A model generated the notes under the pieces. The model made no database searches and had not been told where the DNA came from. It saw nothing but the letters and a program-made list of their open reading frames with translations. From contig JARYHS010008074.1 in the NCBI GenBank assembly GCA_031002005.1, forward strand, positions 352,494,932 to 352,558,931: a DNA stretch of 64,000 bases, in the 5' to 3' direction. This stretch comes from Vandiemenella viatica (lineage: Eukaryota; Arthropoda; Insecta; Orthoptera; Morabidae). Below, in pieces: positions 6,394 to 53,387 of the stretch. The position numbers and the translations under genes were made by a program. How positions within the stretch are numbered: position 1 is the stretch's first letter; each line of letters opens with the position of its first letter.

Positions 6394-7315
6394 AAAACTG
6401 TCACTGTTTTCCCAGGTGCATTACAACCTAAATGCAATCAAATTACATTGAGGTTACTGTCCTGTGAGGAGTGGTATCAGCACAGAACCATTAGTTCAAA
6501 ATGAACGAAGTAATAATCATATGGGGAGTAGTGTTAGCCTTGGACAAGTTGGATATAAAATTACTACAAGGTCTACATTACAAGCTATTAATAGAGCCCT
6601 TCATCATGGAATTATATTTTACACATAATGGTCCAGGGTACATTACAGTATAAGCTCAGAGTTGTTTAGTATGAATTATATTTTATATTTATTGGTTCGG
6701 GACACTATACAACCTAAGTTAAGAGTCCATAAGCATGACATTATTTTTCATTTGATATGCATAACATTACTACCAATTCTTGCAATACAAGGAAATACAA
6801 TATATGACTAACAGACTATTGGAATTAGTCAGTTACTAGTAAATAAAAATGTGAATTAATAAATAAAAACTGACACTTATACCTCACGGATGAATGGAAA
6901 ACCAATCACAAGTGGGCATTAAAAATGAATAGGTCTTTGTCCATCTCAACACTAAACGGAAATTAATACTGCTAATTCCGTTTATGGAGGGTTCTTACAA
7001 AATGAAAAATATATATATTGGTGTAATATCTGCTTTCAGTTGCTACCAAAATAGGCATTATTCATGCGTATTTATTGTTGTGTCTACCAATATTTACTTC
7101 ACTGTTAAAGTTACGCAATCTGAATGGATAGGCACCCCCTTTTTTTGCACGTTTGTTATAATAATAATGCAACTAAGGAAAATGGAAGCGGCTTCTAGGT
7201 GATATAAATAAGGGAAATTAACCCACCACATACCAAAGTGGACGGATGCGATGAGAGGGATCACTTATGTTGACAAACAACTACACAATATTTCGGCATC
7301 TGCCTTGTAAGCACC
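6394..7315. other. unassigned intronic sequence
   Basis: AT-rich, with no motif or exon recognised. It ends at the GCCT that precedes the LTR-like repeat. Confidence 0.4.
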
Positions 7316-9774
7316 TTACTATCGAAGAGGTTAGGAAAAGGGAAGCTCAGTTCACCATACCGATACCGATTCTAAAAATAACTAAACAAACCATTTTTAA
7401 AGCAACAAGAAATAAATACCAGATAGCAAAGCACATAAATAAACCTTACATTGCAATAAAGCAATGATATTCCAGCAGAAAATAGGTTATTCCAAACAAA
7501 AGTAAACTTTCACTACCAGATCCTAATATTGGTCAGGGAGATATTTTGAACAGATTTTAAGGAAGTAAATGTTAAATAACCGTAAATATAGTAACTAAGC
7601 AAACCTTTTATCATAACTACTAAGCATTATTCCAGAGGGAAATAGGTAATTTCACTATAAAGCAAACCTAACCCTTAAATTTTGCCATATACCAGATTTA
7701 GGTACTTCTGAATAGATTTGAATACAGTAAAGACTGTGAGAAGCTAATAAAAGCCAGGCCTAAACTTGCAATAACAGTAACTTCACAGTAAAATATAGTT
7801 CCGAAGAGATTTTAAAGAAATAAATACGATTGCTGGATAGCAGACTGAAGCAGGATGACAATAACAGATTGTGATGTAATTTGACCATTTAAAAGCTCCA
7901 AAAGCAAATGTAATAATGCCTGAGACAGTTTAAAAGAATAGCTGATAAGTTTCTGATAATTTCTAACCACTTAATAATAACATGAAGTAGTTTTGGGAGA
8001 AATTGATAACTCATTTGCATAAGCAGTTTCCAGAAACGATTTTAGGCCTTTTAAGTAATTTCAGGAGTTAAAAAGTAGACGAAAAGGCATTAAATAATCA
8101 CCCCTTTCAGTTTTAATAGGTTCCAAGTAGTTTAAACCTGGAGAAATATGAAAAGTCAGTAAAACTAGGAAGCCAGTATACAGACGTAAATAATCAAACT
8201 TTTCAGCATTAATTCCAACATTTTTAAACCATTTTGAAAGCGATGAGAACAAGTAAAAGCTAGTAGATATACGTAATTAATTTTCTATAAAAATTAAAAG
8301 ACATTTTACTAACCTGCTGTTTGTTAATCCAATTTCGAAATAACTCGCAAGTGGCACCGTACACAAAATATGCTTTTACACTAATTTTAAACACTGCCAC
8401 ACGATATAAAGTAAATAATAAATTAAGACAGTCCGGAAGAGAATTAAATTCATCTAAATCTCGTAGTTTACAATGGTTTCAAGAGCTTAAATGGTTATTC
8501 GAACACACAAAATAGTTCACTCAACTTTACCATTTTCTTATTCAAAAGCATACCAAGATTTTGAGATAAAAAGTAGTTTTCCTTAAAGACCAACTCTTCT
8601 AGTTTCACATACCTTAATTTCATGTCATTTAACGCAATAGAACAGATGTTAGAGAATTTTCAAATTCACACGACAACAGCCCACATGGTCTGAATAGAAC
8701 ATTTTTATTGTGCAGAAGATATCGCACCCACGAAGATGGGACAACTTTCAAAACACAATTTGATACTGGCTACACTTTAGTAATTTTTCCGGTTTGATAA
8801 ATCACATACCTTCAGAGTTATACATAAAAATATATACACAATTAAATGGCGAAGGTGTGAAATTTCTGTTTTTAGTGATAACTCCATCAATTCCTAACCG
8901 ATTTGAATAAAATTTACACTTTTAAGCGGTTAAAATTTGGGACAACACTTTGATTATAGTTTCATGTTTATAACTTATGCCATTTGTAAATCCTTAAAAT
9001 TTCTGAACATGTCGCAATCAGGCGATGATTTGAATTTTGCCATGACGTCATATTAAAAATAAAAGTTAAGAATAAATTAAAATTTTGCCATCCAACATGC
9101 CACACATAAACTCCCATAACTAGTAAACACTTTAGATTTTAAACTAACCACCTTTGAAGAAAGTTGTAAAAATAAATGTGAGGGATTATTTTAGACCGCG
9201 GCAGAACACCGCCGGAGGGTAGCGTTCTTGAACCACTCCTATATAAGCCCCGGTGAGGGAGGGGGTAACAGAGTCCATCAGATCGCTTTGACGAGATCAC
9301 ACGTACTTGATGTGTGCTCAAGTTTGAGAATGCCGGCTCCGGTGCGCGGTGGCTTATGGTCAGGGCAGGTCAAAAACATCATGGCCGACCGGCGCCATTT
9401 CTAAAATCGGCGTGACCAACGTAACATTTTCCGACATGTGTTCGTAACAGATTTCAGTTTCATTTTTGGGGTGGTGCGGTCTGTTTTGTTTCATGATCTG
9501 TGATCTTCGGCTGATGATTTTCTCCGATTGCCATTGCTAACTGTGACTTTTGTAACTTCTGTGAACATTTTCAAGAATATATAATTCAGTTATCCGGATT
9601 CAGACTTTTATTTCTACTTTAGTACCTTTCTTACCACAGTAAATTTTACAGTTAGCATTCTAGATGGTTTAACACGGTTATAGAACTTTTTAAGAACTTT
9701 GACAACTTTTGGATGACTTTGAGTGTAGGTGAAGAAGCCGATACCTAACCTTGTATCCAGCTTATTTCCTAACA
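7316..9774 (+). mobile_element. solo LTR-like repeat, copy 1 (2459 bp)
   Basis: The repeat begins TGTAAGCACCTTA and ends CCTAACA, and is flanked by a perfect 4-bp direct repeat GCCT (7312-7315 and 9775-9778). Two other copies (12258-14022, minus; 55216-56969, plus) share both ends and many interior blocks. The first two thirds are AT-rich. A GC-rich part follows, with a TATA box CTATATAAG at 9239, about 535 bp before the 3' end. This U3-TATA-R-U5-like layout, TG...CA ends and target duplication indicate a solo LTR. No internal region with gag or pol is in the window, so the parent element is unidentified. It is about 700 bp longer than the other copies. Confidence 0.72.
9236..9250 (+). promoter_or_regulatory. 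TATA box of LTR-like repeat copy 1
   Basis: CCTATATAAGCCCC stands at the switch from AT-rich to GC-rich sequence. Its distance to the repeat end (about 535 bp) is similar in copy 3 (TTATATAAAAG at 56400, about 568 bp) and copy 2 (minus strand, about 12826-12836), so the position looks conserved. Promoter activity is inferred. Confidence 0.5.
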
Positions 9775-9904
9775 GCCTTGTTCACAAGTAGAAAAATTGG
9801 TCATTAGGCTCGGAACGTGTGTACACAACGAACGTTACCTAATGACTAACCATGTAGTGGGGGAAGGGGGCGGGGGATGGTTAAGGAGTAGACTATTGAA
9901 AACG

Positions 9905-10247
9905 GTATGCAATGTCTGAGATAAAATATTTACTATATTGCAGGTGATGGTAAAATGAGCATGTGTAGTAAGGGTACAGTATAAATACGGAGAAAAAAAA
10001 AAGGTAGTGATGGGTTAATTGGATTTTAACAGTGGTTAAGTCCAGGTGGGTGTCTCGTATCCAGGCTATCCAGCGTACCAGAATATCCTGGATACGAGAC
10101 ACCCACCTGGACTTAACCACCGTTAAAATCCAATTAACCCATCACTACTTTTTTTTCTGTGTTTATACCGTACCCTTACTACATATTCTCATTTTATCAT
10201 CGCCTGCAATATATTAAATATTTTAACTCAGACATTACATAATGATA
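9905..10247. repeat. long near-perfect palindrome / fold-back MITE
   Basis: A left arm of about 160 bp (9905-10065) is repeated as its reverse complement at 10087-10247, with only about 20 bp between. The inner 60-70 bp of the arms are almost identical (for example GGGTGTCTCGTATCCAGG against its complement). Divergence rises slightly outwards. Transcription would give a long hairpin RNA. No transposase or clear target duplication was seen. Confidence 0.9.
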
Positions 10248-10507
10248 TCGATGTTATAATAATAAAACATTTTTGTTTGCCATCTTTAAATAGATCTTAC
10301 CTGTAGCCTTCAGCTACACAGAATTGTTATGTCTACTTTACCATAAATATTACTTAACCAGAACAAAGATTCTTAATACATTCTTCACTAGATATTGTGT
10401 TACTGTTCACATGATGAAGCATTTCACTGTAATTTCAATGTTTTAAAATTTGGGATTTGACCTAAAGTTTGCTGCAGTAATTTCTTTTACAAATATTTTT
10501 CCATATT

Positions 10508-12257: not shown

Positions 12258-14022
12258 TGTAAGGTGCTAAACCAGTATACCGGGGTGTAGTATTAGTTTA
12301 GTCACCTTAACTGAGTTTTAACTTGCTGAAAGTTCTCCTAAATTTGCATTAATAAATTTACATGACCATGTATTAGCCTGGATGGTTCTACTGTAAAGCT
12401 GATCAGTCACCACAAAGCTTATTTAAACCAAAAGCTGAGGAAAGGTTAGTGTTCACTATGAAAGCATGTAAAAATCCACTTGATGAAAAATTTTAAGTTT
12501 ATTTCACAGTCAGATCTGAAAATAGCATTTACAGTCGAATTGGCAATCGAACTAAACGTCTCCAAAAATCACAAGTCATGAAGAGGAAGAAGTTCCCAAC
12601 TAAACCCCATTAGGTAATTTATAAGTCCATAGTCAATGCTGAGCAAAAGTTCATATGGAGTATCTCAAAGTTCAAACCGACCGGAAGTCAGCCTGGCTGA
12701 CCGACAAACACATTACTTGACAAAACACATTACGTCATGATTACCCCGTGGCTGGATACAAAAGGCCAAAGACCAAAATATAAAGACGACTCCCGTATAC
12801 AAGACAGCTAGACAGCCTGAGCAGCTCAAATATATATTCCCTCAGCCACATGCTAATGGTGACCTACCGCTTACCAAAAAATAGTCTAGGAAAGTTTAAT
12901 TATCGTTAGTGTTCAAAGTTTAACGGTGTGAAGCCTGGCCCTTAAGATTTATAAAAAGTATGATGATTATAATCCCAAATTAATGTGTCTTCTTGTAAAT
13001 GATTTAAGTGTGCGAGCACAGCGGTAACGAATTTTCTAAAAACAGTTGGTGTACCCCCATATATATGTCTTGGTTTGTGCAATTTTTAGACGTCCCCGCT
13101 GGATTGCAAATTATCATGTTTAAATTAATGTCATTGTGTTCAGTGCTTGCTCCTGATTTCCAAGGTGTAACTTTTATTATTATTGGTGGTGATTTAGCAG
13201 AGTTATTTATTTACCAAGACTGAGGTTGAGATTGCCTTGAAGCCATGTTGGAAAAAATTTGGTTTCTGATTAACAATTATTAAAGTATTGTTTATATCAA
13301 AAAAAGTGTTATTCTCTGAATCTTCCTTTTATTTAGTTACGTGTTTTAAAACTTGTTTTGTTTATGGAAATGGTCTAGTTTAATTACAGTTTAATTTCGA
13401 AAACTGCCACGTTTACGACATCATAACTTGAAAATTGATTTAATATTTATTCTACTGCATGGAATGTTTTGAAACTTTAATATAATATACTAGATTCTTT
13501 GCTCTTTCAGGAAATTTACTTTTTAGTTCGAGAAATTATCGAAAATGTGAGGTTATTTATTGCTGAAACTGCAAGTGTGTCTAACAGAGTGTTTAAAATT
13601 TTATTTACTCTATTTACATGGCCTGAAACTACTGAATTTAACTTTCTTTCTGGTTATTATTATTATTATAAAATTACTTTACTGCATGAAAAGAGTTGAG
13701 AATTAGTGAAATTATCACGTAACCCAAATCGATTGTTTACAAATTGGATAATAATGGATTACCCTGTTTCAGGTTAGTTTAAAGGTTACTTACTTTTATA
13801 AATTGTTTATTCAGGACCTGTATTGTATGTTGAGTGACTTTACTGTTTTTAAATCGGCTTATTTACTGAGTTAGGTTGCAGTATCGGCTTCTGCATGAAA
13901 CGTGTCTCTCATGTCTGGTAGTTACAAAATGAAAAATTTTATGTTTACTGGAAAGCTTATTCCCTCCCTTATGCTCTATAGCCAAGAAAACTAGAATTTA
14001 CACAAATTCTAAGGTGTTTACA
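12258..14022 (-). mobile_element. solo LTR-like repeat, copy 2 (1765 bp), inside the Tigger pseudogene
   Basis: Read on the minus strand it starts TGTAAACACCTTAGAATTTG and ends TTTAGCACCTTACA, matching copy 3 (55216-56969) over its whole length. Examples are ATAAGGGAGG, AAAGTCACTCAAC, AATCCATTATT and AAACTTAAAATTTTTC. The minus-strand TATA-like TATATATTTG lies near 12826-12836. Flanks are CGAT and TGGT, with no matching target duplication, so the junctions may have mutated or the copy may have recombined. The host transposase text is interrupted exactly at its ends. Confidence 0.75.
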
Positions 14023-15494: not shown

Positions 15495-16063
15495 TGGTTG
15501 AGAGATTTCTTATTTTTCTTTCCGTCGGCCGCGGGCATCTTATGTTCGCGGCGGATTACAGGTCAGCTGGCGTAATTCAGATATCCACTGGCCTATGCAA
15601 TATTTGCTTGCCTTGTTCCACAAGGAAATTATATATGTGTGACTTTTCTTTTTTTATTGAGTTACTATTGTTGTTACGCTCACGTCCGTGACGATTAAGT
15701 TTGCGTGTAAATCATCGTAGCGAATTATGCTACTTATTTGACTGTCGGCGAGTTATGCCAAGTTCCAGAGGAAAGAGTGTTTTACAACTCAGATTTCGGT
15801 GCATCCTGGTTGCATCTTGCTGGAAATAATAGCTGGTGTCATGTTATAGCATTAACATGCCAATCGACGCTACAATCATAAGGTGAGTGGATCTCTGTTT
15901 TTTTGCGCTATTACTGGCCGAATCGCTGCTGCCGAATTTCGGGTGCTTGTGGTCGGCGGGAGTGAGGAGAGAAATCGCTCACCAATTAATTAATCACGAT
16001 TACGTTCCCTGCGGGAAGTCACTATTTATACGTGGCTTTCCCAAAATAGATAACCATCATCTA
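15495..16063 (+). repeat. BEL 5' LTR (569 bp)
   Basis: It begins TGGTTGAGAGATTTC and ends CCATCATCTA, matching 21673-22245. Differences include TTACAG versus ATAAG near 15565 and a few single-base indels. Confidence 0.9.
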
Positions 16064-16232
16064 TTTTTTGGTCCTCCTGGGGTCGGATATTACACGATCA
16101 GTTTGATTAATATAATCTTTGTATAAGCCAGTTACGCTATACATCAATCATATTTTACAATATGGCTTTCTGGACAAATGTTGATTCTGTAAAATTCAAC
16201 GGAAGCTAGCGTTATTAACTTCAAAGTCGGAT

Positions 16233-18452
16233 ATGATTTTTGAGAGGGTTAATAAACTGTGTAAGATTTCTATGAACATCTCTTCGTTTGATTCCCGGAC
16301 CAATGAAAGTTTTAAGACTGATTCTGAAACAATTGATGATCTTCAGATCAAGTTTGAATCTATGATAGATCAGATTAATGATTTACATTTGACTAAAGAT
16401 CCTGAATATACACCTGATTATACCCCATTGGCTGCATTTGAGGATTTGTACAAGCGTATTAAACGAACTCGCAACAAAATTAGTGCCTCTACCGTTACAT
16501 TGTCATCGCGTCCGAGTGACCGTGAACACATTAAATTACCTCCTATAGATATTCCTAGCTTTGATGGTAGTATGGAGAAATGGCCAGTATTTTATGAATC
16601 TTTCAAAGCTAATATTCATAATAACGACCAGTTAACTAACTCACAGCGTGTGCAATATCTTGTAAGCAAGCTAACAGATAATGCATTGAAGATAACGGCG
16701 GGTATTGTACCTACAGCAGAAACATACCAAATAATGTGGGAAAATCTAGTAAATAGATACCAAGACAAGCGCCTGTTAGGTACTCACTATTTAAATATCA
16801 TTTTGGATATAAAGCCTAGCAACAATAATCCAAACAGCTTGGATACATTTATAGAGAAATATTCAGCAGCAGTTGCAGCTTTGAAACAATTAGGCATTCA
16901 TGATCTTACAGATTTTATTTTATTTCAATGTGCATTGCGTAAGATCGATGCTCAAATTTTACAAGCCTTTGAAATGTCAGTACGCGATAAAGAAATGCCC
17001 ACTTACAACGAATTAACTTTATTCGTGAAATATCAGGTTAAAATTTCTAAACGTTCAAGCAATATGAACAGTGCAAGTTCGGGATTATATTCTCGCGCTT
17101 CAGATAACATGAACAAGCGACTGACAGAAAATGTGACGCGCGGGCGTACTTCCAAAGCATTTGTTTCTAAAGAAGATAACGCAATAGTCAGAGACAATAT
17201 GGCAACTAAGCTTATCTCTGGATCCTGTCCTTATTGCAAGCAAATAGATCATACATTACTCTATAATTGCTCATACTTCAAATCTTTGGGTTCGCCACAG
17301 AATAGATATGAATTTGTAAAATCAAAAAGAGGCTGTGTGAACTGCCTGGGAATTTCTCACACTGTTTCCAACTGCAAATCGTCGTCTGTTTGTAAGTTAT
17401 GCAAGAAACGACACCATACTCTCTTACATTTTGATAGGAAAAATACGCAGACTCATTCCACTCGTCTCAATAAGAGTGAGAATTGCGCGTTGCAAGCCAT
17501 TTCCAACAACAGTGTAAAAACAGACCGCGCCAAAACTTGCTTACCTTGCCGTACTGATGTAGACACCAACTGTTCTGGTCCAGTGGTCGCATCATCGGCT
17601 CATATAAATAAGGCTTCACATAATGAATCTCCGCTTTCCTTGAGCGTTAGTGTAAAGACTAATTTTCATATATTACTTTCCACAGCTCAAGTGTATGCCA
17701 AGTCTACTGATAATAATTATCAAATAATTAGGTGTCTAATTGATAATGGATCACAAAATCACTTAATTACCATCGATTGTTGTAAGTCATTGAACCTACA
17801 GATAATTCCATTAAATAATTCCTATGTGAAGGGTATAGGTTCGAGTTCGCGACCGATTTATGGTTATGTGAATATCGAAGTACAATCCCGTGTATTTAAA
17901 AGTAACAAATATTACATTCAAGCTCTAGTTGTTGATTCTATTAGGCCTACAGACCAATTACCTTCTCATTTTATAGAAAAGTGTGACATGTCATATTTGT
18001 ACAACCTACCTTTAGCTGATTTAACATGGAATATTCCGGGTAAAATTGATCTTGTGTTGGGTGCTCAGCTTTTTCCGTATATTTATTTCGGAGATAGAGT
18101 TGAATCAGGTACTATGGCACCACCTGCTTTACTGACCGCCTTCGGTTATGTGTTGATGGGAGAATATTCTAGTATTCATACTCACCCTACATCTTTTACT
18201 GCTCTAGCACTCAATGAATTGGTGCAAAAATTTTGGGAATTAGAGGAGATATCTCACAAAAAATTCCTAAGCCCTGAGAATACAGAATGTGAGAATTTAT
18301 ATACTTTATCAGTGAGTAGGAACAGTGAGGGTAGATATACTGTGGCTTTACCATTCCTTTCAGATCCTAATGAGCTTGGCAATTCTCGTTTCAATGCTTT
18401 ACGCCGATTTATGGCGCTCAAAAGGAAATTTAATCTATGTCCCACACTCTGA
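16233..18452 (+). CDS. BEL gag-protease, ended by an in-frame TGA
   Basis: This 739-residue frame starts at ATG 16233, about 170 bp after the 5' LTR. Residues ~100-270 are a Pao-type gag (KLPPIDIPSFDGSMEKWP, YLVSKLTD). Residues ~331-395 hold Cys/His zinc-knuckle segments (CPYCKQIDH, GCVNCLGISHTVSNC, CKLCKKRHH). Residues ~500-650 are the retropepsin-like protease with LIDNGSQNHLI. The reverse transcriptase N-terminus begins before the stop. The TGA at 18450 stands where a CGA codon would keep the text running, and the next frame (18579) is in the same phase, so this is a simple nonsense change, plausibly CpG deamination. Confidence 0.88.
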   Translation: MIFERVNKLCKISMNISSFDSRTNESFKTDSETIDDLQIKFESMIDQINDLHLTKDPEYTPDYTPLAAFEDLYKRIKRTRNKISASTVTLSSRPSDREHIKLPPIDIPSFDGSMEKWPVFYESFKANIHNNDQLTNSQRVQYLVSKLTDNALKITAGIVPTAETYQIMWENLVNRYQDKRLLGTHYLNIILDIKPSNNNPNSLDTFIEKYSAAVAALKQLGIHDLTDFILFQCALRKIDAQILQAFEMSVRDKEMPTYNELTLFVKYQVKISKRSSNMNSASSGLYSRASDNMNKRLTENVTRGRTSKAFVSKEDNAIVRDNMATKLISGSCPYCKQIDHTLLYNCSYFKSLGSPQNRYEFVKSKRGCVNCLGISHTVSNCKSSSVCKLCKKRHHTLLHFDRKNTQTHSTRLNKSENCALQAISNNSVKTDRAKTCLPCRTDVDTNCSGPVVASSAHINKASHNESPLSLSVSVKTNFHILLSTAQVYAKSTDNNYQIIRCLIDNGSQNHLITIDCCKSLNLQIIPLNNSYVKGIGSSSRPIYGYVNIEVQSRVFKSNKYYIQALVVDSIRPTDQLPSHFIEKCDMSYLYNLPLADLTWNIPGKIDLVLGAQLFPYIYFGDRVESGTMAPPALLTAFGYVLMGEYSSIHTHPTSFTALALNELVQKFWELEEISHKKFLSPENTECENLYTLSVSRNSEGRYTVALPFLSDPNELGNSRFNALRRFMALKRKFNLCPTL

Positions 18453-20222
18453 GAGAGCTATAATAAAGTTATTGAGGAATATATTACAAATGGTTACTTA
18501 ACAGAAGTTCGTGAATCGGAGGTTAGCGATGACGGGTATTATATTCCCCATCATGCAGTCATCCGCCCTGATAAACCCATGCCTCGCATTGTATTTGATG
18601 CAAGCGCTAAAACTCATACTGGTTTGTCATTAAATGACATTTTGCATACCGGTCCTAATTTACAGGCCAATTTATTCTTGCTTTTATTAAACTTTCGGTT
18701 ATTCCCGATTGCTATTACAGCGGATATCAAGCAAATGTATATGCAGATTGGTGTTGTTAATGACCATCGCAGATTTTTGCGAATATTATTTCGTTTTGAT
18801 GATAGCGAAATAGTTCGGACATTTCATTTTAACCGTATTCCTTTTGGATTAAAATCGAGTCCTTTTCTAGCTATGCGCACTTTGCGACAGCTGGCGGCTG
18901 AAGCGAGTTCTCAGTTTCCTGAAGCCTCTGAAGTCGTCGAGACTAAAATGTATATGGACGATTTGGTTCATTCTGTTCCTGATGAGGAAACAGCTTTTCG
19001 TTTATCCCGAGAACTAATCTCATTATTGAAGTCTGGAACTTTTGATTTAGTAAAATGGTCCAGCAATTCTTCTGGCTTACTCGATAGTCTTCCTGATTCT
19101 CATCGAAGCCCAGTAAACTTTTCAGAAGGAAACGTAGTGACGTCAGCTAAGGTTCTGGGGCTAGCATGGAAACCTTCAGACGACGTTTTCTACTTCACCA
19201 CGACCCAAGTCTGCGAAAAGTGCACGAAGCGGAACATATTATCTGTAGTGGCTCGTTTGTTTGATGTTTTGGGTCTGGTTGCTCCGGTTATTTTGTTAGC
19301 CAAGTTGTTAATTAAAGAACTGTGGCTAAGTAAAATTGATTGGATGATACCCCGCCCGAGAAGTGTGTTACGCCGATTTGCGGCGCTCACTCAAGAATTA
19401 CCTCTTCTTTCCACTATGGAAATCCCTCGTCATGTAGGTGCATCAAAGGACTGCAGCCAATATTGTTGCCTTTGTGACGCAAGTATGAACGGTTATGGTT
19501 CTGTTATATATTTACATACTACTGATGCGTCTGGCATATCTGTTCGACTATTATGTGCTAAGTCCAAGGTTTCACCTACCAAAATAACGACACTTGCGCG
19601 TCTCGAGTTATGCGCCGCGCTTCTGATGTCGAAATTAGTTAAATTAGTTAATGAAACCTATCGAGATCGAGTCCATATAGTAGGCACCTATGCCTTTTCA
19701 GACTCTACGGTAGCTTTGTCCTGGATTCATTCTTCCCCGCATCGTTGGTCTGTTTTTGTGAGTAATAGGGTCGCTCAATGTCAAGAGAACCTTGCTCCGC
19801 AGAACTTCTTTCATGTTGCGGGAATCGAAAATCCAAGTGACTGCCTCTCTCGAGGTATGTTACCGTCACAATTAGTTTCTCATAGCTTGTGGTGGAATGG
19901 ACCGTCTTGGATGCATCGTCCCACTTCTGAGTGGCCCATTAAAACGTTTTCTCCGGGTGATTGTAAGGAATTACCGGAACACAAGACGAATGTTTTCACC
20001 ATTACTACCACTCAACCTGAACCTTCCGTGCTGTATGGTTTATCTCAGCGCGTGTCTTCTTGGGACAAATTATTGAGAGTTGTGATTTACATTTTTAGAT
20101 TTATAAAGAAGATTACCCCTTCTGGTGGGGTAAAGAATTTGTTCTTTGCTGAAAGGGCAATAATTCGTGCGGTACAAGATGTGCACTTTGCAGTAGATAT
20201 TGCTCTTCTGAAAAAAGAATAA
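18453..20222 (+). pseudogene. BEL reverse transcriptase-RNase H
   Basis: The same phase as gag continues after the TGA. The ATG at 18579 is an internal methionine of the polyprotein. Seen in order are PRIVFDASAKT, AITADIKQMYMQIGV (first catalytic Asp), NRIPFGLKSSPFLAMR, the palm motif YMDDLVHS near 18951, and RNase H blocks CDASMNGYGSVIY, ARLELCAALLMSKL and FSDSTVALSWIHS. All catalytic acidic residues I can see are present. The frame runs out at TAA 20220 after a run of A, where a one-base shift puts the integrase in the next frame. Confidence 0.88.
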
Positions 20223-20223
20223 C

Positions 20224-21457
20224 TTGCCTTCCAAGAAGCTGCGGAATTTGTCAGTATTTCTTGATGAAGAAGGTATTTTACGAATTGGTGGACGACTGTC
20301 TAAGTCGGACTTACCCTTCGAAGCTAAACATCCAGCGCTACTTCCCAAGCATGACCATGTTGTGCATCTTATTATCAGACATTACCATGTTTTGAATTGT
20401 CATGCAGGGGCTGGTCTGTTAATATCGATTTTGCGGCAGCGCTACTGGATTTTAGCTGCGAGGATTGTTGTTCGGTCCATGGTACGTAAATGTAATTTTT
20501 GTTTTAGAGTTAACCCTACTCATCCTACTTCCTAAGATGGCAGATTTGCCTCCATGTCGCATACAGGAAGCTAAGGCTTTCGTTCATACTGGAGTAGATT
20601 ACGCAGGTCCGATTCCTATAACCCTTACACGACGCCGTGGTCAACACTCTCAAAAGGCGTACATTTGTCTTTTTGTGTGCCTAGTCACTAAGGCTATACA
20701 CATAGAGCTGGTCTCAGACTTAACGTCTGATACATACTTAGCCGCATTCAAGCGCTTTATTGCAAGACGAGGACCTGTTTCTTGTCTATATTCAGACAAT
20801 GGTACCAATTTTGTAGGTGCCAAGGCTCAGTTAGAAGAGTTGAACAAAGCTCTAAAACCTGAATTAAGTAGTCGCCGTATCGAGTGGAAAATGATTCCTC
20901 CGCGTGCTCCGCATTTCGGAGCATTGTGGGAGTCTAATATAAAGAGTTTGAAGACCCATTTATTTAGAGTGATTGGAAATCAACTTCTCACTTATGAAGA
21001 ACTGCAAACGGTTCTAGTTCAGATTGAATGCGTTATGAATTCGCGACCTTTAAATGTAGTGTCGTCGGATCCATACCCAGAAGTTATTACTCCTGCACAT
21101 TTTTTGATGTCAACTCCACTACAGTACTTACCGGCCGCTGACATGTCTTGTTCGAATCTAAACCAACGTAAGAAGTTGTTAGATCAGATGGTCCAGTCAT
21201 TCTGGAAAAAATGGCGACTTGAATATTTGCACACCCTGCAAGTTAGACATAAATGGTCGACACCGGATAACCCTGTTCAAGTGGGTACAGTTGTAATCGT
21301 GGGGCAGGATGATTCTCCCCCTTTGAACTGGCCCTTAGGAGTGATTATTAAAACTTATCCTGGTTCAGACAATGTCACTCGGGTGGCGATGGTGAAGACA
21401 CGATTCGGCACTTTCAAGCGTCCAGTGGTTAAACTTTATCCCATACCAACACAATAA
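20224..21457 (+). pseudogene. BEL integrase, one internal frameshift
   Basis: The first part (to about 20525) has the zinc-binding H-H-C-C region, with HYHVLNCHAG and CNFCFRVNPTHPTS. After a one-base shift the core continues with GVDYAGPIPI (Asp), YSDNGTNFVGA (Asp) and HFGALWESNIKSLK (Glu), and a C-terminal domain to the stop at 21455-21457. Integrase joins the cDNA to host DNA. The core triad looks intact; only the frame is broken. Confidence 0.87.
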
Positions 21458-21672
21458 TATTTTTTTCTTTCATTCCTTTTAATGTATCAAATTTATTAAT
21501 AGCCTTTTAATTTAATCTTTCGTCAATCCTACTCTCAACCCCTATCTTCATTATTGCTTTAAATCAGCAAAGTTACTTTAATTTTTATGTCACAACTTAG
21601 AATATCCCATAATGTGAGGGAAAATTATTTTTATTTTTTGAAAGTCCTAAGAACTTTCAAGGGGGGGGAGCA
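21458..21672 (+). promoter_or_regulatory. BEL 3' untranslated region with polypurine tract
   Basis: A 200-bp AT-rich spacer ends in a purine run AAGGGGGGGGAG just before the 3' LTR, the usual plus-strand priming site. Confidence 0.7.
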
Positions 21673-22245
21673 TGGTTGAGCGATTTCTTATTTTTCTTTC
21701 CGTCGGCCGCGGGCATCTTATGTTCGCGGCGGATATAAGGTCAGCTGGCGTAATTCAGATATCCAATGGCCTATGCAATATTTGCGTGCCTTGTTCCACA
21801 AGGAAATTATATATGTGTGACTTTTCTTTTTTTATTGAGTTACTATTGTTGTTACGCTCACGTCCGCGACGATTAAGTTTGCGTACAAATCATCGTAGCG
21901 AATTAATGCTACTTATTTGACTGTCGGCGAGTTATGCCAAGTTTCCAGAGGAAAGAGTGTTTTACAACTCAGATTTCGGTGCATCCTGGTTGCATCTTGC
22001 TGGAAATAATAGCTGGTGTCATGTTATAGCATGAACATGCAAATCGACGCTACAATCATAAGGTGAGTGGATCTCTGTTTTTTTGCGCTATTACTGGCCG
22101 AATCGCTGCTGCCGAATTTCGGGTGCTTGTGGTCAGGCGGGAGTGAGGAGAGAAATCGCTCACCAATTAATTAATCACGATTACGTTCCCTGCGGGAAGT
22201 CACTATTTATACGTGGCTTTCCCAAAATAGATTATCCATCATCTA
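21673..22245 (+). repeat. BEL 3' LTR (573 bp)
   Basis: It starts TGGTTGAGCGATTTC and ends TCCATCATCTA, followed directly by the GGGGG duplication at 22246-22250. Confidence 0.9.
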
Positions 22246-41754: not shown

Positions 41755-42249
41755 TCTGGTATCCCGTCCTGATATTGCGGCATGCCCGGTAGGTGGCATG
41801 GAAATCGACATAGTATAGACGGCGCTGGCATCAGGCCAACCAGCGCCACCGCAGCACAGTTTCCGCCACGGCCAATCAGAGCCGACCCGGCTCGGATATA
41901 AATAAGCCAGCGCAGCTCCATTCATCCAGTTCGTTGTTCGCTGCGCTTTCAGTCGTGTCTCCGTCAACTGTGCTTCGTCTCTTGGACTCTCGACAGTGTT
42001 TTGTCTCGGCTATGTCTACGGTACTCTCTCTCGGACTCAGTGAATCGCTTCTTGGACTCGTGACTGTGCTTGTTCTCGGTGACGTTCGGTACGCTCTCTT
42101 CGGACTCTGTAAACCTCACGTCGGATACAACCAGTGCACGTCTTTGGATTCCGTTCGGCCTGCTCCTTGGACTTGTTCGGGTTCTTCGTGACCATCTTCT
42201 GCGGACTGCCCCTCCGCCGTTCGACGTCGGCCGCCGCACGGACATAGCA
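41755..42249 (+). repeat. Gypsy 5' LTR (495 bp)
   Basis: It begins TCTGGTATCCCGTCC and ends CGGACATAGCA. A TATA-like GATATAAATAAG lies near 41894. It contains about 62 bp (approximately 42099-42160) that the 3' LTR lacks. Confidence 0.9.
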
Positions 42250-42284
42250 ATTGGCGACGAGGAAAAAGGTTATCAGCTGGCATC

Positions 42285-45200
42285 ATGGACACCATGACTC
42301 GTATTCTGGAGCAACAACAACAGCAGACAGCGCTGCTACAGCAAACGCTCCAAGTAATACTCGAGAAACTGTTAGCACAGGAGGCCAAGTCAGTCCAGGC
42401 CTCGGAAAATTCACACATCCGGCCGCCAGCGTTTCCACCATTTAATGACGCTAAGGAAGACTGGGACACATATTTGCATCGGCTCAAACAGCATTTCTCG
42501 GCATTCCAGGTGACGGACGATGCCTTACAGCGCTCGCTGTTTCTGTCGTGGGCATCACCCGACACGTTCTTCCTCCTGAAGAAACTGGCCCCATTATCAG
42601 ATCCGGTCGCCCTCACATTCAACGAAATGTGCACTCTGCTAACAAGCTACTACTCTCAAAGATACCACGTGGTGGCCTCCCGCCTTGAGTTCCATCAGTA
42701 TCACAAACAACCGGGACAATCATACCGGTCATGGGTGACTGATCTCCAAGGTCTTAGCCGTAAATGCGACTTCACTTGCTCAAACGCAAAGTGCAGGGCT
42801 TCATATGCAGACTCCCTGATCCGCGACGTCATAGTGCAGCTAGCTCCAGACCCAGAGGTGCGCACAGCGGCACTGAAGCTGGACAACCCATCACTCGAGG
42901 ACATTCTACGCATCGCGCACTCGCATGAAATTGCGCAAGCAGCGAACGAGCGCCACATGGCTCGCCCACAAGTAGCAGCGGTCAAACCATCACAACACAA
43001 CTCCCGCGCACAAGGCAAACCCATGGCGCGCTCCAGACACCAACAAAGCAGGATGCCATCGCTGTCCAACGTATCTATGACGTCCGAACCCCGACCCCCA
43101 CCCCGCCGACGATTCCAGAGGCCCCTGCCGTCTTGCCCACAGTGCTTCACTTCGCACTCACGGGCAGATTGCCCCGACCGTTGGGCACATTGCACACGCT
43201 GCGGTAAAGAGGGACACTTGCAGGCAGTCTGCCGAACCCGGGCACCTCGCCCCAACCCGATAGCCCGCATGCAGCAAGAAACGGTCAATACACTACAGAC
43301 CGCAGCTCATACTGGCGACCCGCTCTCACAGAAACTATTCTTAACTCTTAGAGTCGCCAACCAGGACATCCGTTTTCAAGTGGACACGGGGGCAACCGTC
43401 TCGCTGATAAACCAAGCCACCTACGCTCAACTAGGCTCACCACCGTTGTCTCCACCTTCACGGCGTTTGGTATCGTACGGGAATAGAGACATTCCCCTGC
43501 GGGGTCAGGTCTGCATCACGGCCGCCTACAAACAAGTCACCAGACCAATCACCTTTTTTGTGGTGGATCAGCCCTCGGCTACTAATATTTTTGGGTTAGA
43601 CGCATTCAACAGATTCGGATTCTCAATCGTGGACGAAGTCCAGGTCATATCGGACTTGGTCCCATTCCAGGACCTAGAGGACCTCTGTACTCAGTTCGCA
43701 CCCATCTTTACGCCAGACTTAGGGTGCGCCTCAGATTTCGAGGCTCACATCGCCCTCCGGCCCAGTGCAGTACCTCGCTTTTGTCGTGCCAGACCTATTC
43801 CGGTCACCTTACGTGCAGCAGTAAAACAGGAACTTGACCGGCTTCAGAAGATTGGAGTAATCGAACCTGTCAAATCCAGCGCGTGGGCTACACCACTGGT
43901 CATCATCCGGAAACCCAATGGCACCCTCCGGTTATGTGGAGATTTTAAGGCTACGATCAACGCCCAGTCTCAAGTCGAGACGTATCCAATCCCACGACAA
44001 GAAGATCTTCTCACTAAACTTGCGGGCGGCGAATATTTCTCCAAGATTGACCTCGCAGATGCATACTTGCAGCTTCCACTAGATGAGGAATCGCAAAACA
44101 TCGTCGTCATCAACACACCGTTTGGACTCTACAAATACAAGCGCCTCCCGTTTGGCATCGCTTCTGCACCGGCAATATTCCAAAGATACTTGGAGCAGCT
44201 ATTGCGACACATCCCGGCATGCGCAAACTACCTGGACGATATCATTGTCACAGGAACCACTCGCCAGGAGCACCTACAAAACCTGCGCACGCTATTTGCA
44301 GCATTACAAGAGACAGGGCTGAGGTGTCGCCTCGAGAAGTGTCGGTTTTTTCAAGAGGAAGTAGAATATCTCGGCCATTGGCTCAACAAAGAGGGAATTA
44401 GACCATCAGACCGCAACGTGGCCGCCATAGATTCCCTACCCCGCCCAAAGAATCTGCCAGAACTACAAGCCTTCCTCGGGAAAATAAATTACTACTCAAA
44501 GTTTCTGCCACAAGCGGTACACATCTCACAACCCCTCAACCAGCTCCGGAAAAAGGGCGTTGCCTACAACTGGACCCCTTCTTGTCAACGGGCCTTCGAC
44601 CGGCTAAAGCGCATGCTAAGGTCTGCTCCTTGTCTGATGCCATTTTCTCCTACACGGCCCCTAGTCGTGGCAGCTGACGCCTCAGCATATGGAATCGGGG
44701 TGGTACTCGCACATAGGAATGAAGACGGCTCTGAACAACCGATAGCGTTTGCTTCTAAGACATTGACGCCAGCACAACGCAACTACTCGCAGATCGAGAA
44801 AGAGGCATTGGCAATAGTCTTCGCTATCAAGAAATTCCGTGTATATCTATTTGGAACCAAGTTCTCCCTCATCACCGACCACAAACCGTTGGTGGCAATA
44901 TTTGGACCCCGCTCCAGCCTCCCAGAGCGAACGGCCCAACGCCTACAACGATGGGCGATGTTTCTGAGTGCTTATAATTATACAATCCAATATAAGCCAA
45001 CAGCACAACACTCCAATGCCGACGCCCTATCACACCTGCCTGCCGGCCCCGATCCGGAATTCGACCAACAGGAAGTACTGTGTTTTCATATCGACACAGA
45101 GAGGAAGCAGACAGTGGACGGGTTCCCCATTACAGCAGCCCGAATCGCCTCCGCCACGCAGCGGGATCCAATCTTGCACCAGGTCCTGCGCTATATCATT

Positions 45201-45602
45201 CACGGGTGGCCAACATACTTCACACGCAGAATGGACAACGAGTTGAAGACATGGCGCCACATATCTGACAGACTCTCGGTCACAGACGGCGTCATCCTTT
45301 TGGACGCAGAAAACGACACACATCGTGTGGTCATCCCAGTGGAATTGCGCTCACAAATTCTAAAGCTCCTGCATCGAGGACATTGGGGCAGGTCCCGTAT
45401 GAAAAATCTCGCAAGAAGACATGCTTATTGGCCAGGAATCAACCAAGACATCAAGAAGATGGTACGCAGCTGCACAGCCTGCGCCCAACATCAGGCAGCG
45501 CCCCGCAAGCTTTCGCCCCCTGGCCCACACCCCGCCAACCATGGGACCGTATTCATCTGGATTTTGCAGGCCCATTTTTGGGAACTATGTGGCTACTTAT
45601 AA
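42285..45602 (+). CDS. Gypsy gag-pol polyprotein, frameshifted before the integrase core
   Basis: The 1105-residue frame opens at ATG 42285 with a Gln-rich coiled-coil-like start. Gag follows to about residue 280, with Cys-rich knuckles CPQCFTSHSRADC and CTRCGKEGHLQAVC (residues ~283-315). Then come protease FQVDTGATVSLI (~365), reverse transcriptase with LPFGIASAPAIFQ and catalytic YLDDIIVTG (~648), RNase H with AADASAYGIG (~793) and DHKPLVAIFG, and the integrase zinc region (H-H-C-C, ~1027-1066, ending CTACAQHQ). Text after about residue 1075 is out of frame. All visible catalytic residues are present, so only the frameshift disables this copy. Confidence 0.92.
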   Translation: MDTMTRILEQQQQQTALLQQTLQVILEKLLAQEAKSVQASENSHIRPPAFPPFNDAKEDWDTYLHRLKQHFSAFQVTDDALQRSLFLSWASPDTFFLLKKLAPLSDPVALTFNEMCTLLTSYYSQRYHVVASRLEFHQYHKQPGQSYRSWVTDLQGLSRKCDFTCSNAKCRASYADSLIRDVIVQLAPDPEVRTAALKLDNPSLEDILRIAHSHEIAQAANERHMARPQVAAVKPSQHNSRAQGKPMARSRHQQSRMPSLSNVSMTSEPRPPPRRRFQRPLPSCPQCFTSHSRADCPDRWAHCTRCGKEGHLQAVCRTRAPRPNPIARMQQETVNTLQTAAHTGDPLSQKLFLTLRVANQDIRFQVDTGATVSLINQATYAQLGSPPLSPPSRRLVSYGNRDIPLRGQVCITAAYKQVTRPITFFVVDQPSATNIFGLDAFNRFGFSIVDEVQVISDLVPFQDLEDLCTQFAPIFTPDLGCASDFEAHIALRPSAVPRFCRARPIPVTLRAAVKQELDRLQKIGVIEPVKSSAWATPLVIIRKPNGTLRLCGDFKATINAQSQVETYPIPRQEDLLTKLAGGEYFSKIDLADAYLQLPLDEESQNIVVINTPFGLYKYKRLPFGIASAPAIFQRYLEQLLRHIPACANYLDDIIVTGTTRQEHLQNLRTLFAALQETGLRCRLEKCRFFQEEVEYLGHWLNKEGIRPSDRNVAAIDSLPRPKNLPELQAFLGKINYYSKFLPQAVHISQPLNQLRKKGVAYNWTPSCQRAFDRLKRMLRSAPCLMPFSPTRPLVVAADASAYGIGVVLAHRNEDGSEQPIAFASKTLTPAQRNYSQIEKEALAIVFAIKKFRVYLFGTKFSLITDHKPLVAIFGPRSSLPERTAQRLQRWAMFLSAYNYTIQYKPTAQHSNADALSHLPAGPDPEFDQQEVLCFHIDTERKQTVDGFPITAARIASATQRDPILHQVLRYIIHGWPTYFTRRMDNELKTWRHISDRLSVTDGVILLDAENDTHRVVIPVELRSQILKLLHRGHWGRSRMKNLARRHAYWPGINQDIKKMVRSCTACAQHQAAPRKLSPPGPHPANHGTVFIWILQAHFWELCGYL

Positions 45603-46591
45603 TTGATGCCTATTCAAAGTACCCGTACGTTGTTCGCATGGCATCCACAACGACGGAAGCCACACTAAATGCATTAAGCCAGGTTTTGGCCATCGAGGGG
45701 TTACCACGCACCCTCGTCTCAGACAATGGGCCCCAATTCACAGCATCGACATTCGAAGAATTCTGCATGGCTAACGGCATCAAACATATCTTCAGTCCTC
45801 CATTCCATCCCGCCTCAAATGGCGAAGCAGAACGGCTTGTAAGGACGTTCAAGCAACAAATGCTGAAAGAGGTACAGTCAGCTACGACGTCTTCTGCCCT
45901 CACCCTCTTTCTCAGCACATACCGGACAACACCAATTAATGGTCGCAGCCCAGCAGAACTGCTCCATGGGCGACAACTACGAACGATGCTGCACCTCCTG
46001 GCACCATCACCGGCAGAGCCCCGGTCCAGACCGTCCCATCAGTACACGCCAGGCAGCGCGGTGTGGGCACGCGCCTACGGAGGGAACGCTAATTGGGTGC
46101 CAGCAACAGTAGTGGGGACACACGGACGCCATGTCGTCTCAGTACAAACGCCACACAGAATAGAACGCCGTCATCAAAACCAGCTGCGTCCTCACATCAC
46201 AACAGGCCCATCACCATCACAACAATATCAGGAAGAATACAGTATACCACCATCAGCACCATTAGCAGAGGTCCCACACCCACCCTCCCCACAACGACGA
46301 TACAACTTGCGCCCAAGAAAGCCAGCAGTGCCGGACGAGAGTGACGTCGAAATGGACACATCCATCAACCATCCAACAACCACATCGGCACCGACGTCAC
46401 AACGTCCTCAACCATGGAGTACGTCGGCGCATGATGCGGCCGGGATACCACAATCATTCCAGCCTCATCACCCCAAGCATCGTCCAGGGCGCTTCCGTCC
46501 GTACGCGCCAACTTCAGGGGGGAGGGATCTGGTATCCCGTCCTGATATTGCGGTATGCCCGGTAGGTGGCATGGAAATCGACATAGTATAG
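45505..46591 (+). pseudogene. Gypsy integrase core and C-terminus (shifted frame)
   Basis: The frame, open from 45383, becomes homologous at about 45505-45530. It shows LDFAGPFLG (first Asp), TLVSDNGPQFTAST (second Asp) and HPASNGEAERLVRTF (Glu), then a basic, Pro-rich C-terminus with RRYNLRPRKP. It ends at TAG 46589-46591, inside the 3' LTR, as in several compact Gypsy elements. Confidence 0.9.
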
Positions 46592-46960
46592 ACGGCGCTG
46601 GCATCAGGCCAACCAGCGACACCGCAGCACAGTTTCCGCCACGGCCAATCAGAGCCGACCCGGCTCGGATATATATAAGCCAGCGCAGCTCCATTCATCC
46701 AGTTCAGTGTTCGCTGCGCTTTCAGTCGTGTCTCCGTCAACTGTGCTTCGTCTCTTGGACTCTCGACAGTGTTTCGTCTCGGCTACGTCTACGGTACTCT
46801 CTCTCAGACTCAGTGAATCGCTTCTCGGACTAGTGACTGTGCTTGTTCTCGGTGACATTTGGTACGCTCTCTGCTCCTTGGACTTGTTCGGGTTCTTCGT
46901 GACCATCTTCTGCGGACTGCCCCTCCGCCGTTCGACGTCGGCCGCCGCACGGACATAGCA
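46528..46960 (+). repeat. Gypsy 3' LTR (433 bp)
   Basis: It is near-identical to the 5' LTR but lacks about 62 bp between GGTACGCTCTCT and GCTCCTTGGACTTG. A TATA-like GATATATATAAG lies near 46668. It is followed by CCTTT. Confidence 0.9.
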
Positions 46961-49079: not shown

Positions 49080-51330
49080 CATGACTTAAAAACAGCTTAA
49101 CTGATTTTGACGGGATTTAAAGCTGTTGATTTTTGTAAAGAACATTGGAAATTAAAAGGGGTGAGGGTAAAGGGGAAGTGTGATTGGGCTTATGTATGCC
49201 AAATGTAGACTGCCTTTTCAGATTGATTTAAAGTATACGTGTGTAAATTTCTATTGATATCAGATAAAACTGTAGGTATGTATAAAAAACAATTAAGGGG
49301 TGTGGAGATGAAGAGTAGTTTGGTTTTTGTAAAGCTAGTGTGGGCAGTATTTTTCTCTTTGTTTTAAAGTATACATGTGCCGTGTTCAATGAAAATCTGA
49401 TAAAACTGTGGGTATCTATAAAGAATATTGGAAATTAGGAGGGGTGGGGGTAGAAGAGAAGAGGGGTTGAGCGTCTGCAACCTAATTTAAACACAATTGT
49501 TCGGTATGTTTTAAAGTATACGTGTGCAAATTTCCTTCAGAATCGGATAGAAATTGTAGAATAAAGGATGGAAAGGAAGGAGTGTAGTTTGGACTCTCGA
49601 AACCAAATGTAGACAGTATTTTTCTGTTTGTTTTGCAGTATACATGTGCATACTTCCTTCAAAATCAGAAAGAAATGGTAGCTTTGTATAAAGAACATTG
49701 GCAGTAATTAAAGGATAGGGTTTGCGTTTTTGTGAAAGTTATGTGGACAGTATTTTTCTGTTTCTATTTGTTTTAAAGTATACACATGCGAAGTTCCACT
49801 GAATCGGATTAAAATGTGGTTCTGTACAAATATTAAGGGAAGCGGAGCCAGGATAGTTTTTTTGATTTTTTGGTCAGAAATCTTATTCATAAAAAAATCC
49901 ATATATATGCACCAACTTTCATAAAAATTGGTCAAATGGTGTCGACTGTAGCTTTCTAATAAGAAATTGACAAAAACCAAAGGGGTGGAAACGGGGAGAG
50001 GGGTTCAGTTTCTGCAAACCAAGAGTTGGCATTATTTTTCTCTTTGTTTTATAGTAAAAATTTGCCAAGTTCTGTCTAAACCGGATAAAAACTGTGGTTG
50101 TGTATAAAAATTAAGCGGTTTGATGGGGAGAGGGGGTGGTTTTTAGATCTTTTGGTCAGACTCCTTTTTCGTGAAAAAATACATACAAGCACGAACTTTC
50201 ATGGTAATCGGTCAAACGATCATGAGTGTAGCTTTTTATAAAGAACATTGACAAAAGTTAATGGGGTTGAAGGAGGGAAAGGGGTTGAGCATTGGCAAAC
50301 CAAATATTGACAGGATTTTTCTCTTTGTTTTAAAGTATACATAGGCAAAGTTAAAAAAAAAAAAAAAAAAATCAGATAAGAAATGTAGATTTCTATAAAA
50401 TTAAGGGGTCAGAAACCTTCTCCATGAAAAATTACATGTATATGCCAACTTTAATGGAGACCAGTTAAATGGTGTCGACTGTAGCTTTGTATAAAGAACA
50501 TTGGCAAAAATTTAGGGGGTGGATAGGGGAGAGGGCTTCAGTTTTTTCAAACCAAAATTTGACAGTATTTTTCTCTTTATTTTTGACTAAACATGTTCAA
50601 AGTTTCATCGAAATCGGATAAAAATGTGGGTTTGTATAAAAATTAAGGGGTGTAAAGGGGAGAGGGGTGGTTTTTTATTTATTTATTGTTTGGTCAGATT
50701 CTCCATTAAAAATTAAATGTATATGCCAACATTGATGATAATCGGTCAAATGGTGTCGAATGTAGCTTTTTATGAAGATCATTGAAAATAATTAAAGGGG
50801 CGGAAGGAGGGAGGGGGTTGAGCTTTGGAAGACCAAATGTTGACATGGGCAAATTTCAATAAAAATCAGATAAGGTATGTAGGTTTCTATAAAATTAAGG
50901 GGTGTAAAGGGGAGAAGGGGTGGTTTTTTATTTTTTTGTTAGAAACCTTCTCCATGAAAAATTACATGTAAGTGCCAACTTTAATGGAGATCAGTTAAAT
51001 GGTGTCGACTGTAGCTTTGAATAAAGAAAATTTGCAAAAATTACGGGGGTGGATGGGGGAGAGGGTTTCAGTTTTTTTTAACCAAAAGTTGACAGTATTT
51101 TTCGGTTTATTTTTGACTACATATGTCCAAAGTTTCATCGAGATCGAATAAAAAATGTGGATTTGTGTAAAAATTAAGGGGTGAGTGGGGGTAGAAGGGG
51201 TGGTTTCTCAATGAAATTCCCTAGCCACTAAAAAAATTTCATTGAAATCGGTTCAAAATTGGCGAAGATATCACTGAACATACATACAAAAAAATACAGA
51301 CGAATTGAGAACCTCCTTTTTTTGAAGTCG
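49080..51330. repeat. diverged G-rich tandem array
   Basis: About 2.2 kb of related ~130-bp subunits. In the right half, the landmark TGTAGCTTTNTATAAAGAAC recurs at about 49945, 50229, 50479, 50758 and 51008, with alternating spacings of about 284, 250, 279 and 250 bp. Each unit pairs an A-type half (CATGAAAAATTACATGTATA, GGTGTCGACTGTAGC) with a B-type half (TTTCATCGAAATCGGATAAA, AATTAAGGGGTG). Every subunit carries G-tracts such as GGGGAGAGGGG. The array ends with GAACCTCCTTTTTTTGAAGT and CGGTTAAAA near 51310, which looks like a transposon tail common in arthropods. The family is not identified. Confidence 0.8.
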
Positions 51331-53180: not shown

Positions 53181-53387
53181 GACTTGTGTTAGATAAACGA
53201 AATTTGGTAGGCGTGTTTATACATCTGAAAGATGACATCGATTCAAATTTCACGCTTCGCGCATAAGTGTGGCGCTAGTAGCGCTACTCAGAGCTTGCAA
53301 ATCAGGTTTGCTTTAAATACGCGATGTAAAGTTTGTGAACGTTATTTACCGCTGAGATTTGACATAGTGAGTTGATGTTAGCCAAGA

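Follow-up and report, generated by a model that had tools for sequence, protein, structure and literature searches.

The window analyzed here is a stretch of 64,000 nucleotides from the genome of Vandiemenella viatica, and three long segments within it have the terminal features of retrotransposon long terminal repeats (LTRs). The first, copy 1, is an LTR of 2,469 bp on the forward strand (positions 7306–9774) that ends in CCTAACA and carries what we refer to below as an A-type R-U5; its target-site duplication, GCCT, which has no strand, occupies 7302–7305 on the left and 9775–9778 on the right. Copy 2 (12258–14022, reverse strand; 1,765 bp) is an LTR of a related family, and its flanks, ACCA and ATCG, form no target duplication. 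Copy 3 (55216–56969, forward strand; 1,754 bp) is also an LTR, with flanks (ACAT and ACAG) that match at three of four positions. As the initial annotation had reported, all three segments start with TGTAA(G/A)CACCTTA and finish with CCTTACA or CCTAACA, and GCCT is present and perfect on both sides of copy 1. Each segment also has a TATA-type box, for which that annotation gave a distance of 535–570 bp from the 3′ end; the measured distance is 535 bp in copy 1, 579 bp in copy 2, and 569 bp in copy 3 (TATA boxes at 9240–9245 and 56401–56406 on the forward strand in copies 1 and 3, and a TATA-like box at 12831–12836 on the reverse strand in copy 2). The start of copy 1 had been placed at 7316, which is 10 bp inside the LTR; the true start is 7306, at TGTAAGCACC preceded by GCCT.

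The window holds other features as well. A BEL/Pao element (15495–22245) has LTRs that are 97% alike and matches to DUF1759, Peptidase_A17, RT, and integrase in three open frames. A Gypsy element (41755–46960) is flanked by repeats that match at 97% over 345 bp; it has a long frame for gag-pol and integrase in a second frame, and its RT matches that of a gypsy piece elsewhere in the genome (L072, described below) at 40%. A Tc1/mariner-like transposase of 342 aa lies in one open frame at 53382–54410, a long palindrome is found just downstream of copy 1 at 9877–10270 (96% complementarity between its inner arms of 74 nt and 80% between its 122-nt outer arms), and a tandem repeat at 49295–51218 has a spacing that alternates between approximately 250 and 280 bp. 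Rfam and tRNA scans of the 64-kb window gave no match.

The three segments had been described as copies of one family with many interior blocks in common. For copies 2 and 3 such blocks do exist, as 776 alignment columns covering the first 750 bp of the two are 73% alike, and a further 253 columns close to the 3′ end are 70% alike. Copy 1, on the other hand, has in common with copies 2 and 3 a single block of approximately 90–100 bp, at 71% (E = 6e-6 and 2e-5), and relatives of copy 1 match copy 3 over 286 bp at 66–67%. Because copy 1 has only this small block in common with the other two, the segments are better described as members of several related families than as copies of one family.

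Copy 1 itself has many close relatives. A search of the V. viatica genome (3.72 Gb, 8,965 contigs) found at least 39 other places that match it at 85–94% among the best 40 of 3,509 candidates scored (42 matches that, by reading, correspond to 40 distinct places including the window, which makes this count a lower bound), and the similarity is thus not a matter of chance. Twenty of these 39 places were examined, with 9.5 kb of sequence each. No second close copy was present within 9.5 kb at any of the 20 (0/20 with an inside), and at one of them, L023, a 71% relative lies some kb away. Family-type ends with exact 4-bp duplications were found at 13 of the 20 (L009, L010, L012, L013, L014, L017, and L021–L027, the last of which carries an insert), which are accordingly single LTRs; several candidate starts and ends were allowed at each locus, such that the chance of an exact duplication is somewhat greater than 1 in 256 for each. 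At the other seven (L011, L015, L016, L018, L019, L020, and L028) an exact 4-bp duplication was not found. In addition, 47 exact copy-1 starts were counted in the genome versus 0 for the control, and no two of them form a same-strand pair within 10 kb. Copy 1, a single LTR between target duplications and without an inside, is certainly a solo LTR, as had been proposed, and so are its close relatives, while relatives with the same ends are paired around a primer-binding site (PBS) and a purine tract. The expectation that the LTRs occur in pairs with constant ends is borne out for the wider group, in which pairs are found and ends are nearly constant, and not for LTRs of the copy-1 type, for which no pairs were found.

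The complete layout seen in these relatives consists of an LTR, a PBS (TGGCGACCGTGACAGGAC), approximately 0.7 kb without genes, a polypurine tract (PPT), and a second LTR. An LTR end followed by TGGCGACC occurs at 264 exact sites in the genome, versus 3 for the reversed pattern; 100 of the 264 were listed and 41 inspected, namely nine in the ladders L029–L031, the loci L032, L033, and L034, and further sets of 10 and 19. Where the LTR ends in (C/T)CCTTACA, 21 of 23 sampled sites continue into the same non-coding module, and for two of these 21 (L062 and L064) only about 100 bp are covered, so that the start of the module alone is seen. The exceptions are L060, which departs after approximately 35 bp, and L061. 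Among 18 sites with CCTAACA ends, assigned by reading, 11 are of the gypsy type represented by L032, three (L046, L047, and L056) have a module-like start, and four are of other kinds. L046 and L047 (C1:66366098 and 66367457) are two identical LTR-end/PBS junctions in opposite orientation, 1.4 kb apart. No copy of the exact copy-1 subfamily with an inside was found, and the nearest such element is L056/L065.

The internal landmarks are those of an LTR retrotransposon. The complement of the PBS was found in a tRNA-like T-arm context at 72 places in the genome versus 0 for the control, and 71 of the 72 match all 15 bases preceding CCA; the search pattern was built from the PBS complement and tests only for existence in a tRNA-like context. 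The PBS thus fits a tRNA ending in GTCCTGTCACGGTCG-CCA, which we take to be tRNA-Arg. At the other end of the module, the tract CTTCAATCTTC(N)(A/G)GGGGCA is joined to the LTR start TGTAA at 895 sites, versus 0 for the control, placing a purine tract directly before the 3′ LTR, and the elements are bounded by direct terminal repeats of the form TG...CA with target duplications.

In the elements measured, what lies between PBS and PPT appears to be non-coding. Twelve insides measure 679–743 bp, and their longest open stretches in six frames are 60–103 aa; in 50 shuffles of one inside, the longest open stretch averaged 60 aa with a maximum of 91, a value exceeded by three of the twelve (95, 98, and 103 aa). 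None of the 12 encodes a pol of its own, as a Ty3/gypsy element would. Module families diverge down to 57%, with length and both ends constant, and one inside (L036) is shorter, at approximately 0.58 kb, as implied by the distance between its PBS and PPT sites. The view that a coding part is absent here was correct, and also too narrow, as the insides sampled in the relatives nearly all consist of a non-coding module.

A very different reading of the ends, namely that TGTAAG...CTTACA represents the short inverted termini of a DNA transposon, draws on the short inverted repeats in which copies 2 and 3 end. Copy 1 ends in CCTAACA, however, which is not the exact inverse of its start, and the same sequence forms direct repeats at both ends of elements that have a PBS and a PPT. 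This reading is refuted by the ladders and by a complete element with direct LTRs, both described below, and we consider its likelihood negligible.

The complete element, L067/L033, is young. It measures 4,755 bp (2,031 + 693 + 2,031 bp), has TCCT on both sides, and its LTRs are identical at 2,029 of 2,031 positions, with two differing sites. Two further elements link this layout to the segments of the window: L063/L066 has a copy-2-like LTR end followed by the PBS, 718 bp of non-coding inside, and the PPT, after which comes an LTR start 88% like copy 2 over 156 bp; in L056/L065, a copy-1-like LTR end and the PBS precede an inside of 743 bp and the PPT, and the LTR start that follows, broken by a SINE-like insert, is related to that of L026, a C-type relative of copy 1 (84% over 134 bp). 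Across the group, LTRs are 1.3–2.5 kb long, two to three times the length of the inside. LTR-module ladders were read at three loci (L029, L030, and L031), where the spacing of successive PBS is mostly 2.0–2.7 kb, with one pair at 3.4 kb. The LTRs of L029 and L030 are 93–95% alike, but approximately 518 bp of U3 is absent in one form, and both sizes occur within one ladder.

It could be argued that nothing here is non-coding by nature, and that an ordinary coding gypsy family has merely lost its inner parts by LTR recombination. The lack of an inside at all of the copy-1 relatives examined would fit such an account, as would the abundance in the genome of gag and pol from related elements. At 21 of the 23 sampled C/TCCTTACA sites, however, the inside that is present is the non-coding module, and the very young complete element is likewise non-coding; we therefore regard a merely eroded coding family as improbable.

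Some LTRs of the copy-1 group are composites. Seven of the 20 relatives (L020, L021, L022, L024, L025, L027, and L028) are chimeric, in that their first 1.95 kb is as in copy 1 and is followed by a different stretch of approximately 530 bp that is common to the seven (B-type, as opposed to the A-type of copy 1). Six A-type LTRs, copy 1 included, and six B-type LTRs were compared, with L012, L015–L019, and L027 left out. In U3, the 36 pairs of an A with a B copy have an identity of 93.9%, and the 15 pairs within each type have 94.6% (A) and 96.1% (B), whereas R-U5 identity is 50.4% between A and B versus 92.5% within A and 94.1% within B. For one A-B pair, the R-U5 identity is 48.7%, while shuffled sequences gave 44.2% on average and at most 50.7%; at the level of sequence the two types of R-U5 appear not clearly related at all. 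The C-type LTRs L023 and L026 side with A, their R-U5 being 85.2% like A and 52.7% like B.

The two types part between GGGAGGGGGTAA and (G)(T/A)(C/G)AGTC, approximately 30 bp past TATATAA, where transcription would be expected to start; in copy 1 this point lies at 9266–9277 on the forward strand, and its position suggests that it is also the U3/R boundary. In a tree of U3, the six B copies form one clade with a support of 1.000. A break approximately 30 bp past the TATA box is what a template switch would be expected to leave, and the simplest reading is that B-type LTRs originated by a single switch at the first strand transfer of reverse transcription and then spread. The two parts could also have been joined on the chromosomes, by gene conversion or by unequal exchange between copies, and with all six B copies in one U3 clade a single event of any kind would be enough. 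Yet no more than about 10 nt separate the break from the point where transcription presumably starts and the first strand transfer takes place, and conversion tracts would have no reason to stop at that point, so that a chromosomal exchange seems unlikely to us. A comparable role of the first template switch has been proposed elsewhere. In Onsen of Arabidopsis, most LTR recombinants are reported to fit such a switch (PMC5668417), and LTR variants of crapaud from Podospora are explained in the same way, with the difference that in crapaud variation is described as residing mostly in U3 while the rest is common (PMC10787394), whereas here U3 is common and R-U5 has been replaced.

A B-type LTR end joined to the PBS was found at a single site, L024 itself, and so no B-type inside is known. 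At L024 and at L061, which have different LTR types, the LTR end is followed by TGGCGACC and by 13 nt of the LTR end repeated, and then by flanking sequence; this odd extension is the same in both, and L024 has an exact ATAG on both sides.

Some sites of the 895-site PPT pattern lie 7–13 kb apart on the same strand, and two stretches chosen for that spacing, L069 and L070, contain the module and the PPT and extend 9 bases into an LTR, which is as far as the LTR of a coding element was read; the L070 unit is a putative coding unit. In these stretches the module starts with a degraded PBS (TGCAACCGTTACAGG or TGCGACCGTGAAAGG), and upstream of it lies, instead of an LTR end, other non-coding DNA with palindromes and TATATAA. 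The palindromes include CAGCAGTGTACTGCTG, and TATATAA is found approximately 33 bp ahead of the degraded PBS in both stretches. The pattern of degraded PBS joined to module has 181 exact sites in the genome versus 0 for the control. Upstream in the L069 unit is a gag piece of 220 aa (L071) that is 28% like the gag of L032 (E = 1e-23), and in the same cluster, approximately 40 kb away, is a gypsy RT piece (L072) that is 68% like the RT of L032. Each type is abundant, with at least 150 matches in the genome (the best 150 of 8,349 candidates for gag, and of 12,306 for RT).

The position of the module relative to RT was compared by script on contigs numbered below 4538, for which every junction is listed (98 of the 181), together with all 79 RT matches listed there. 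For 12 of the 79, the same strand carries a module junction 2.7–5.4 kb downstream of the RT, versus 0 in the upstream control and 0 and 0 in the controls on the other strand; judged by their letters, these 12 junctions comprise nine L070-type, two L069-type, and one mixed. Gag precedes RT by 1.71–1.75 kb in 10 pairs. Among pairs of gag and junction, drawn from a selection of 21 of the 150 gag positions, 9 of 11 are just 2.3–3.1 kb apart, which is too small for a full pol, and forms without pol therefore exist as well. For the PPT, 20 of 100 listed positions, picked for their proximity to a junction, RT, or gag, give a purely descriptive picture without a control: the module junction lies 560–698 bp before the PPT in 15 cases, and the PPT lies 4.3–5.7 kb downstream of RT in four. 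The RTs with a module junction (12) and those with an exact PPT (four) belong to different elements. Within 10 kb of coding elements, no exact LTR-PBS junction was found among the 100 sites listed.

The modules on the coding side resemble those of the non-coding elements. That of L069 is 80–81% like those of L030 and L033, and that of L070 is closest to the copy-1-like L065 (64.6%, versus a shuffle mean of 47.1% and maximum of 50.8%), while L069- and L070-type modules are 57% alike. Gag and RT of elements with this common 3′ module are of gypsy type; L032 has RNase H and integrase in addition to RT. The likely helpers of the non-coding elements are thus coding gypsy elements that match them in 3′ module, PPT, and LTR start. 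We also considered whether L032-type gypsy elements are the family itself. No similarity was found between their LTR, approximately 0.7 kb long by reading, and copies 1–3, and only the PBS and the end motifs are common to both, so this candidate was rejected.

Taken together, these observations make it very probable that the three segments are LTRs of a diversified, non-autonomous group of Ty3/gypsy type, probably copied by coding gypsy elements. RNA would start approximately 30 nt past the TATA box and run through R-U5, PBS, module, and PPT into the 3′ LTR. It would then be packed and copied in trans by proteins of the coding elements, and the product would insert with a 4-bp duplication. Recombination between LTRs could subsequently give rise to solo LTRs, such as those in the window, and to the LTR-module ladders, both of which would form readily given LTRs two to three times the length of what they enclose.

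How helpers and dependents came to have the same 3′ end is more speculative. The coding lineages may have acquired their 3′ ends, possibly on two occasions, from the elements that parasitize them, with the partners recombining at the start of R and at the PBS, rather than the parasites being deletion products of the coding elements; we offer this as a tentative possibility that is less likely than not to hold in full. Exchange at the start of R would yield a B-type LTR, in which the U3 of one family is joined to the R-U5 of another. For exchange at the PBS, minus-strand synthesis on a non-coding RNA would run to the PBS and then jump to a coding RNA packaged with it in one particle. Such a jump would fit the way in which coding elements carry the whole non-coding 3′ half (module, PPT, and LTR start), from the degraded PBS on, downstream of RT. 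Alternatively, the non-coding form may have arisen through a deletion between two copies of the PBS in a coding element, but this requires the PBS duplication to have been in place already, whereas a switch at the PBS explains the relic of a PBS at the boundary in two lineages that are only 57% alike.

The working principle of these elements is that of TRIMs (terminal-repeat retrotransposons in miniature) and LARDs; by size they are neither, and we do not class them as members of either group. LARDs, or large retrotransposon derivatives, have long LTRs and a non-coding inside of several kb. The present elements are like them in having long LTRs and a non-coding inside, and unlike them in that the inside measures about 0.7 kb (0.68–0.74 kb in twelve) rather than several kb. 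The lack of coding is equally a feature of TRIMs, whose sizes do not agree with LTRs of 1.3–2.5 kb and insides of 0.68–0.74 kb in twelve. The TRIMs compared were Wukong from maize (PMC4528315), PbTRIM from an ant (PMC3532108), and Helenus of animals (PMC10886601). TRIMs are described with LTRs of 100–250 bp and insides of 100–300 bp, and Helenus with LTRs of up to 323 bp, insides of up to 621 bp, 4-bp duplications, and a PBS common with Gypsy elements. TRIMs resemble our elements in their non-coding inside with PBS and PPT and in their solo LTRs, the animal TRIMs also in their 4-bp duplications, and Wukong in its ladders; they differ in having far shorter LTRs. LARDs are named in the PbTRIM paper as well (PMC3532108).

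Literature searches found neither this family nor, among the papers listed, one with the letters of its PBS, and we make no claim that it is unpublished. Non-coding LTR families of Culex are likewise insect LTR elements without a coding part or a known coding master, and are unlike ours in having tandem repeats inside and LTRs of 208–315 bp in three table rows (PMC3286476). We are dealing with a known kind of element in unusual proportions. Non-coding LTR elements are often without a known helper, and for PbTRIM no coding partner was known at publication (PMC3532108). In this genome, each of two non-coding lineages has its closest module on the coding side (L033/L030 with L069, and the copy-1-like L065 with L070), and junctions of the two types are both present downstream of RT; borrowing and exchange between non-coding and coding elements are therefore testable. 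An LTR two to three times as long as the inside is also a possible reason why many solo LTRs can exist in a genome without a coding part being found for them.
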